From the NCBI RefSeq assembly GCF_037023735.1, contig NZ_CP146069.1:62001-126000 (forward strand): a stretch of 64,000 bases of DNA, in the 5' to 3' direction. This DNA comes from Roseovarius sp. S88. GTDB lineage: Bacteria > Pseudomonadota > Alphaproteobacteria > Rhodobacterales > Rhodobacteraceae. Below the pieces are notes generated by a model. That model worked only from the letters and a program-made list of their open reading frames with translations. It did not search any database and had not been told where the DNA came from. Below, in pieces: positions 28,681-30,410 of the stretch (position 1 is the stretch's first letter; the number at the start of each line of letters is the position of its first letter). A program made the position numbers and the translations under genes.

Positions 28681-29268
28681 CTATGTCACGGCACAATGTG
28701 CATCAACAACACGCTGCACCATGGGTGCGAAATGGGCAAAACTGGGCGTCTGCATGTTCGGGTCTTTACCCGCATCATCGAGATAGCGAACAGCAACGAT
28801 GTCTTGCACGTTCGGATTACGCACAAAATCCGCAACTTCAAGGTCATTCATCGGCCCACCCTGAAGGTTCAAAGAATGCACAGACGCATCCGACAACTCG
28901 CCAAAATAGGCGGGGTTAGTGGCACATAGATATCTCTTGGCCGCAACATGAAACCGCACACAATCTGTGACAATGGTCGGAAAGAAAGCCTCAAGAACTT
29001 TAGCACCAGCCTCTTCATGATAGCGGTCTTCGGTATCCTCCATCGAGAATGTGCCGAACTCAGAAGTGAAATGTCCAATATCGTGCAAGAGCGCTGCAAC
29101 GATAATCTCTTCACCCAAACCTTTTTTCTCTGCGAGCGTGGCCCCCTGTAACATGTGCTGAGCCATCGTGACCGGCTCACCAAGGTATTCCTCATCTCCA
29201 CAACGCGCAAAGATATCGGCGATGAAATCAACTATATTCGCCTGCGTTAGAGTCTGTTTTTTACTCAT
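28681..29268 (-). CDS. tmpB: HD-domain mixed-valent diiron oxygenase, TmpB-like
   Basis: A 195-residue HD-domain protein like PhnZ and TmpB, which cleave the C-P bond of a 1-hydroxyphosphonate oxidatively. The diiron ligands are visible: H38, H62-D63, H66, H84, H107, and an aspartate in YLDDAG. Y28 and E31 in YLGE match the lid residues that separate these oxygenases from HD phosphohydrolases. Its start shares bases with the stop of the dioxygenase gene upstream (TAATG), so the two are translated together. TmpB would yield glycine betaine and phosphate from the hydroxylated substrate. The exact phosphonate is inferred from the partner gene. Confidence 0.8.
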   Translation of the reverse strand: MSKKQTLTQANIVDFIADIFARCGDEEYLGEPVTMAQHMLQGATLAEKKGLGEEIIVAALLHDIGHFTSEFGTFSMEDTEDRYHEEAGAKVLEAFFPTIVTDCVRFHVAAKRYLCATNPAYFGELSDASVHSLNLQGGPMNDLEVADFVRNPNVQDIVAVRYLDDAGKDPNMQTPSFAHFAPMVQRVVDAHCAVT

Positions 29269-30410
29269 TACTCAGCCGCCTTCACAATCTCTTGCACCAG
29301 CACAGCATGCGTGGAGCGCAATCCATCCATGTCCGCGTAGCAGCCTTGAAGCCATCGTGATCCAGACCCGGAATATCCTTTGCGCGCATGAAGCACTCGG
29401 GTGTTATCGACAACAAAACATTCACCCGGCTCAAGCTTGAAGGTTATTTCCATATTCGGGTCATCAATGATCTGACCTAGTCGCCGGTACGCCGCGTAGT
29501 AAGCCGCCATATCTGCGTAAGGTACATCCGTGATCGCCGCCGCCGACCGATTGTTGAAGCGAACACCTACCAATGCGCCGTCTGGGGCCAATTCGATCAT
29601 TGGTCGACGCGACCGCAAGCACACGCCCTCTGATCCAGCAAACTCAAACCGAGCGCAGTACGAACTCAAAAGGTGAAATCCGCGTGGATCCTCCCGTTTC
29701 AGACGCTGCGCGCAGGCAAAACCATCAACCACCATATTTTCTCCGCCTTCTGCGGAGTTTTCCAAACAGTAGAGGACCTGCACTGTCGGCACAGGATCAC
29801 GATACGGATTGTCGGTATGCGCCTGAAGTCCGAGGCCCGTGAACGCCAGGTTCGACGGGTTTACTTCCGTCCGCACTTCGAAGTGCCGTCCATAGTTAGT
29901 CTCGCGAACATAACCAAAAAGATCAGCAACTTCGAACAGAGCGCCTTCTTCCACAGGGCCACCAGTCAGTTTGCCGAACCCGAACTGAACAACACCATCC
30001 AACCATGCGGCCAAAGCCTCTTTGTCAGCTTTGACTTGACCAAAATCCGCCGTTGGAATGTGGTCGCTCATGGCGCTGTCCCACACGAGGATTTCGTCAC
30101 TAATCCAGCCTTTTTCGGCAATTTGAGGCAAGTCATAGCAGTGCGCCAACAGCCAATTCACGTCATAATCGATCCTTTCATCACTGGGTGCAAAAGTGAT
30201 CGTTACTGTTTCACCTCTCACTTCGACTTCACTGATCGCGATATCTTCTGGAACGTCCGACAAAGTTATTAGCCGTTGCCCATTCCCCGATGCGCGCGTC
30301 CCCTCGTCCCAAGCATTGTCGCGCAGCCAGACAGCATGGTAACGTGACGCGACACCTGCCATGTCGAGCGCGATAGCCGCTCCATCTTCGATGATCTTCA
30401 CACTGGTCAT
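29268..30410 (-). CDS. tmpA: 2-oxoglutarate dioxygenase, TmpA-like ((2-trimethylaminoethyl)phosphonate hydroxylase)
   Basis: A 380-residue Fe(II)/2-oxoglutarate oxygenase, similar to gamma-butyrobetaine hydroxylase. Iron ligands are H and D in [12 protein letters not shown] and H in VLHARKG; the 2-oxoglutarate arginine is in GSRWLQGCY. The N-terminal domain starts with WLRDN as in the hydroxylase, but the usual cysteine cluster that binds zinc is absent ([10 protein letters not shown]). The start has a perfect AGGAGGTGA site at 30410. Coupling to the TmpB-like gene supports the phosphonate role over carnitine synthesis. Confidence 0.8.

Follow-up and report, generated by a model that had tools for sequence, protein, structure and literature searches.

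The oxidative degradation of 2-(trimethylamino)ethylphosphonate by the TmpA and TmpB enzymes is a known pathway, first described in 2019 as told in the accessible part of PMC10574752; structures have been solved, both genes are named by curated protein family models, and the gene pair analyzed here is a new member of this established system. The described enzymes of Leisingera caerulea (PDB entries 6npb, 6npc and 6npd for TmpA, and 6npa for TmpB) are encoded by the same two-gene set and have the same length and the same catalytic and phosphonate-contacting residues as the proteins of our locus; the Leisingera TmpA differs in having a tyrosine at a position of the aromatic cage where our protein has a phenylalanine. 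The PhnY*/PhnZ system, which acts on aminoethylphosphonate, and the GmPhnY*/GmPhnZ system, which acts on methylphosphonate, likewise cleave the C-P bond oxidatively in two steps and likewise employ a di-iron HD protein with a YxxE lid as one half of the pair. PhnY* belongs to another dioxygenase family, whereas the dioxygenase partner in the locus described here matches the Pfam family TauD.

The window analyzed here, a stretch of 64,000 nucleotides from Roseovarius sp. S88, carries on its minus strand the tmpA gene (29268..30410), coding for a 380-amino-acid Fe(II)/2-oxoglutarate dioxygenase that is a predicted 2-trimethylaminoethylphosphonate hydroxylase, and the tmpB gene (28681..29268), coding for a 195-amino-acid HD-domain di-iron oxygenase that is a predicted (R)-1-hydroxy-2-trimethylaminoethylphosphonate oxygenase. 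The tmpA frame extends from an ATG at 30410 to its stop at 29268, and the tmpB frame from an ATG at 29268 to its stop at 28681; the two meet in a TAATG overlap (29266..29270, minus strand), in which the final A of the tmpA stop codon doubles as the A of the tmpB ATG and which likely couples the translation of the two genes. A first-pass annotation of the window had described both frames and their overlap, and the minus strand indeed contains them at these positions. Although the program-made list of open reading frames puts the start of tmpA at a TTG at 30461, we place it at the ATG at 30410 because a good ribosome-binding site, AGGAGGTGA (30411..30424, minus strand; read from the sequence), precedes this codon.

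The sequence comparisons described below make it very probable that this is an orthologous TmpA-TmpB pair that would convert 2-(trimethylamino)ethylphosphonate to phosphate and glycine betaine. By analogy with the Leisingera enzymes, and following the chemistry given in the accessible parts of PMC10574752 and PMC8177086, TmpA would use Fe(II), O2 and 2-oxoglutarate to hydroxylate the substrate at C1, the carbon next to the phosphorus, yielding the (R)-1-hydroxy compound; TmpB, presumably a mixed-valent di-iron HD oxygenase with a tyrosine lid that opens on substrate binding, would then split the C-P bond of this intermediate to give the two products.

The tmpA product scores 579.5 bits against the NCBIfam TmpA equivalog model (NF049936; cut-off 400) and the tmpB product 351.8 bits against the TmpB equivalog model (NF049941; cut-off 300). 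The models of related enzymes remain under their cut-offs, namely, those of gamma-butyrobetaine dioxygenase (TIGR02409; 404.1 bits versus 414.75) and trimethyllysine dioxygenase (196.5 bits versus 268.3) for TmpA, and those of PhnZ1 (141.9 bits versus 300) and of PhnZ-type phosphonate HD proteins in general (TIGR03276; 202 bits versus 214.6) for TmpB, which still shares a superfamily with the latter. Among the structures in the PDB, the best match of TmpA is the Leisingera TmpA (6npb; E = 6.7e-151, 505.8 bits; 217 of 352 aligned residues, or 62%, identical), and the human gamma-butyrobetaine hydroxylase scores 171.4 bits (E = 2.6e-49). TmpB has four matches, the Leisingera TmpB (6npa; E = 1.3e-92; 135 of 187 aligned residues, or 72%, identical) and three constructs of PhnZ, which comes next with E = 2.3e-28; these constructs are deposited as 'HD phosphohydrolase PhnZ', a name that refers to the PhnZ oxygenase. 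The assignment to the TmpA/TmpB type made in the first-pass annotation is borne out by both equivalog models and by these structural matches: the dioxygenase is nearer to TmpA than to the carnitine-type hydroxylases, only the TmpA cut-off being exceeded, and the HD protein most closely resembles TmpB, followed by the PhnZ oxygenase, rather than a phosphohydrolase.

In a phylogenetic tree rooted with the human hydroxylase, the TmpA of the window, the Leisingera TmpA and 100 relatives form one clade on a long stem, with a support of only 0.70. Within it, the window's own clade (support 0.90) includes six other loci (L003–L007 and L073), with TmpA proteins that are 72–91% identical and with source organisms that are all named Roseovarius except for one Rhodobacteraceae bacterium. 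Another Roseovarius locus (L046; TmpA 67% identical) is not a member of this clade and shows the arrangement with LysR described below. A far more distant pair, with 58% identity for TmpA and 61% for TmpB, was detected in a genome of the same genus as the window (L104 in G278) and may reflect separate acquisition or transfer.

The lid motif YxxE of TmpB is represented by Y28 and E31, and the H...HD...H...H...D metal set by H38, H62/D63, H84, H107 and D164, in line with the arrangement set out for this type of HD oxygenase in the accessible part of the review PMC8177086; each of these residues is invariant across 100 aligned relatives. This alignment combines the 80 loci of the TmpA search (the best 80 of 230) with 20 from further genomes, and two of its TmpA rows (L023 and L091) are identical, leaving 99 distinct proteins. 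In TmpA, the iron ligands are H198, D200 and H341 and the 2-oxoglutarate arginine is R352; N187, N287 and R288, which hold the phosphonate according to the accessible part of PMC9296572, are all present at the published numbers. Both the PhnZ-like HD oxygenase with its YxxE lid and the iron and 2-oxoglutarate residues of the dioxygenase, which the first-pass annotation had pointed out, are therefore seen in the proteins, along with the full HD metal set and all the published phosphonate contacts. N287 is not strict among the TmpA relatives, being N in 92 of 100 and A or S in 8.

At the cage position that corresponds to Y194 of the human hydroxylase, the window TmpA has F190, a phenylalanine found in 42 of the 100 relatives, in place of the tyrosine of Leisingera. 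This replacement and the room left by about 62% identity to the Leisingera TmpA would be compatible with a shift of a TmpA/TmpB-like pair towards another N-alkyl phosphonate or an unmethylated one such as aminoethylphosphonate, as in PhnY/PhnZ; we consider such a drift improbable, given that both proteins pass the equivalog cut-offs and that TmpA retains the phosphonate contacts as well as most cage residues. Furthermore, the accessible part of PMC11203657 describes an inefficient turnover of the unmethylated hydroxy compound by TmpB despite similar binding residues, which argues against a changed substrate and also implies that the substrate cannot be deduced from residues alone.

We regard it as very improbable that tmpA instead encodes a carnitine-type hydroxylase acting on gamma-butyrobetaine and that the HD gene lies next to it by chance. 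The two dioxygenases share a superfamily, the TIGR02409 score lies close to the cut-off, and the window TmpA resembles the hydroxylase in the residues that bind iron and 2-oxoglutarate, in most positions of the aromatic cage, and in the equivalents of N191 and N293. The mapping of residues was guided by what we take to be the zinc ligands (C38, C40, C43 and H82), the cage and the iron positions of the human hydroxylase. The positions N191 and N293 of the latter come from the accessible part of PMC9296572.

The positions of the zinc ligands are occupied by A33, D35, T38 and E78 in the window TmpA and by A, D, T and K in the Leisingera TmpA; a cysteine occurs at none of the three cysteine positions in any of the 100 TmpA relatives (99 distinct), and the histidine is present in one. 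The first-pass annotation had taken the lack of the zinc cysteines to fit a re-tasked enzyme; the cysteines are indeed absent, but their loss alone is no mark of TmpA because most of the 20 hydroxylase-like controls also lack the three-cysteine pattern, which is present in a single one (L130), the others having one cysteine (12) or none (7). The column of R288 behaves differently: every one of the 100 tmpB-linked rows (99 distinct proteins) has R here, whereas H is found in 19 of the 20 hydroxylase-like controls and alanine, according to the PDB alignment, in the human hydroxylase. The only control with R in this column is the same L130, a hydroxylase-like gene from genome G200 with no tmpB nearby; this combination of a zinc-type pattern with the arginine favors the hydroxylase alternative to some extent and implies that R288 separates TmpA from these controls, although there may be zinc-type hydroxylases that share it.

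Against a hydroxylase stands the TmpA model score, which is higher by 175 bits, and the distribution of the full-length matches to this model in a family survey of 295 sampled genomes, which fall into two groups well apart, with scores of at least 513 bits or at most 336 bits and none between. Genomic linkage also speaks against it: tmpB adjoins tmpA downstream in all 80 related loci (the best 80 of 230 from the TmpA search), with overlap lengths that vary owing to the automatic choice of the first start codon. In a separate comparison, tmpB was found within the fetched 5 kb for 20 of 20 TmpA-type genes (sampled from 38 places over the TmpA cut-off) and for 0 of 20 hydroxylase-like controls (sampled from 52 full-length matches at 235–336 bits), the controls being chosen by their TmpA-model score and hydroxylases by predicted function only. 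Across the survey, tmpA exceeds the cut-off in 38 genomes, tmpB in 38 and both in 37, a co-occurrence for which a Fisher test overstates the independence of the genomes, given their shared ancestry. In one genome (G133), TmpB scores 299.2 bits, just under the cut-off of 300. Another genome (G036) contains a tmpB over the cut-off (L133:5811-6467; 349.9 bits) and no tmpA match, perhaps a remnant, the result of an assembly gap, or a partner of another hydroxylase. According to an estimate cited in the accessible part of PMC10574752, tmpB-type and Gimesia-type phnZ-like genes are present in less than 1% of the bacteria expected in surface water.

Hardly credible is a rearranging dioxygenase of the DfmD type that would belong to phosphonate biosynthesis and use the same substrate: DfmD shares the substrate and is among the PDB matches of TmpA (9j0j; E = 3.8e-30), but scores 108.3 bits versus 505.8 for TmpA and has a serine where both TmpA and the window protein have N187. 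The gamma-butyrobetaine hydroxylase, DfmD and PhnY/PhnZ readings were rejected on the grounds of scores, residues and linkage.

For the orthologous TmpA-TmpB pair, the genomic context was analyzed on both sides. A gene for an EamA-family membrane transporter (27688..28611, minus strand; PF00892) lies 69 bp behind tmpB, and a same-strand homolog is found downstream of tmpB in all six other loci of the clade, within 100 bp in four of them and at 1.6 kb (L005) and 2.3 kb (L007), with open reading frames between, in the remaining two; the encoded protein is a possible uptake or export partner of tmpAB. Upstream, on the same strand, are genes for a GbdR-like (AraC-type) regulator (31083..32069, minus strand; 295.1 bits against NF052371, below the cut-off of 480) and for a dimethylglycine-dehydrogenase-like flavoprotein (32091..34589, minus strand; E = 5.2e-171 to the dimethylglycine dehydrogenase 4p9s in the PDB), homologs of both being present in all six other clade loci. 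In three loci (L005, L006 and L007), the GbdR-like gene has the same orientation as tmpA and ends 105–131 bp ahead of the aligned start of the latter; a divergent glutathione-peroxidase-like gene, recognized by eye, intervenes in the window, L003 and L004, and 3.7 kb separate the two genes in L073. Farther upstream, the window encodes threonine dehydrogenase and glycine C-acetyltransferase.

The window also contains a gene for a corrinoid methyltransferase of the MttB/MtgB type (37819..39357, minus strand), an open frame without an in-frame stop that matches the PDB entries 4yyc (E = 5.9e-167) and 9yce, 'Glycine betaine methyltransferase' (E = 2e-97). The genome has several members of the MttB family, including this one, whose identity with the glycine betaine demethylase MtgB is possible, as a guess. 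Ruegeria pomeroyi demethylates glycine betaine by means of MtgC and MtgD, with MtgB as the proposed partner, and genes for the later demethylation steps are often located near mtgBCD in marine bacteria (both from the accessible part of PMC12478193). Judging from the context, the glycine betaine formed by TmpB would pass to the neighbouring demethylation genes. Elsewhere in the genome, the match to an MttB-family gene (G000:C1:462324-463792) is divided into two segments that lie in different frames, with an in-frame TGA in one of them; this gene appears to be either a pseudogene or the product of misassembly.

Outside the window's clade, homologs of the dimethylglycine-dehydrogenase-like or MtgB-like genes were found in just 4 of 74 loci (L009, L014, L043 and L066), in a search of the loci of the best 80 of 230 with E up to 1e-20, half length and fetched flanks of up to 8 kb. 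Given this count and the multiple copies of the MttB family alone in this genome, there is no clear excess, and we claim the tie between tmpAB and glycine betaine genes only inside the clade. Several neighbours were considered, and rejected, as members of 'phosphonate-associated' NCBIfam families, namely, an aminotransferase as PbfA (score of 233.9 against a cut-off of 525), an FAD oxidase as TIGR03329 (141.5 against 632.8), a GntR protein as phnR_burk (83.1 against 271.5), the EamA protein as phn_DUF6 (24 against 288.15), the product of a LysR gene at 39425 as phn_lysR (87.3 against 341.1), and the threonine dehydrogenase as HpnZ (139.7 against 328.1). Because these scores are far under the cut-offs, we ascribe them to superfamily resemblance and claim no larger phosphonate cluster; none of the scanned neighbours exceeded a curated cut-off for a phosphonate transporter. 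Other genes of the window include one for a hydantoinase-A-type domain protein (40896-42425), which adjoins queG (42380-43477), and one for a DoeA-like (ectoine hydrolase) peptidase (22852-24036; 573.9 bits versus a cut-off of 613).

Most other relatives of tmpAB differ from the window's lineage in what precedes tmpA. A GcvA-like LysR gene, divergent and located just ahead of tmpA, was identified in 63 of the 79 loci with at least 1 kb of upstream sequence among the best 80 of 230, including L008, L011 and L018 (52 by clustering of open reading frames and 11 by tblastn; the family name comes from one member that scores under the model's cut-off), and may regulate the tmp genes. Divergent LysR genes are known at phnWAY and phnWX clusters (accessible part of PMC10574752), and a LysR gene occurs in a cluster with a gene for a TmpB-like HD protein (accessible part of PMC11203657). 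The divergent LysR gene was not found in 16 of the 79 loci, that is, the six other members of the window's clade and ten others (L012, L013, L020, L039, L041, L051, L058, L059, L061 and L068), nor ahead of tmpA in the window itself. Elsewhere in the window's genome, no ortholog of the tmp-linked LysR was detected: in a comparison of six hand-chosen genomes, the tmpA-adjacent LysR proteins of three other genomes score 276–392 bits, the best match in the window's genome reaches 169 bits, about the level of the next paralogs (165 and 164), and the best matches in G249 and G278 reach 187 and 160 bits.

The presence of the GbdR-like and dimethylglycine-dehydrogenase-like genes upstream of tmpA instead of the LysR gene suggests that tmpAB is controlled together with glycine betaine catabolism in the window's lineage, where the GbdR-like protein is a candidate regulator that, judging from its location, would control the pair. 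A fuller scenario, to which we assign a rather low probability, is that in this Roseovarius-type clade tmpAB has shifted from a LysR of its own into a glycine betaine regulon: a GbdR-like activator sensing the product of the pathway (or dimethylglycine) would induce both tmpAB and the dimethylglycine dehydrogenase, the phosphonate would serve as a source of carbon, nitrogen and phosphorus, and the EamA protein would be its transporter. No Pho box stands out ahead of the window tmpA, the best site agreeing at 9 of 14 positions compared to a mean of 8.65 for shuffled sequence, or across the 80 loci (the best 80 of 230), where the mean best score is 8.70 compared to 8.55 for shuffled sequences and L063 alone reaches 11. 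In the accessible literature on TmpA/TmpB phosphonate degradation, most subscription papers lying outside it, we came across no description of LysR genes next to tmpA or of the surroundings on the GbdR side, and we make no claim to a first sighting.

The genome assembly (two contigs, 3.64 Mb) contains, in the TauD family, tmpA and one partial match (38.3 bits), and the general PhnZ model retrieves from it tmpB (201.6 bits, under the model's cut-off) and an HD match of 31.7 bits. The genome has no match to phnJ, and thus no sign of C–P lyase, and no match to PhnW over the cut-off. A phnD-like gene (PF12974, 208 bits) followed by genes for an ABC ATPase and two permeases, both recognized by eye, is located at about C1:2,765,400–2,768,900, and the respective transporter is a possible phosphonate uptake route. 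From the genomic context, uptake of the substrate would be mediated by the EamA protein or by this ABC transporter. A second phnD-like gene (G000:C2:99714-100443; L086 and L088), adjacent to a by-eye cytochrome c peroxidase gene, has its halves in different frames and looks broken.

The R/H difference at residue 288 is a possible marker for telling tmpA from hydroxylase-like paralogs in surveys, with L130 as an exception. To this marine bacterium, in whose genome no phnJ was detected, the predicted TmpA-TmpB pair would offer a way of releasing phosphate from a trimethyl phosphonate. The changed neighbourhood of tmpAB in this lineage poses the question whether the phosphonate is used for phosphorus alone or, via glycine betaine, also for carbon and nitrogen.
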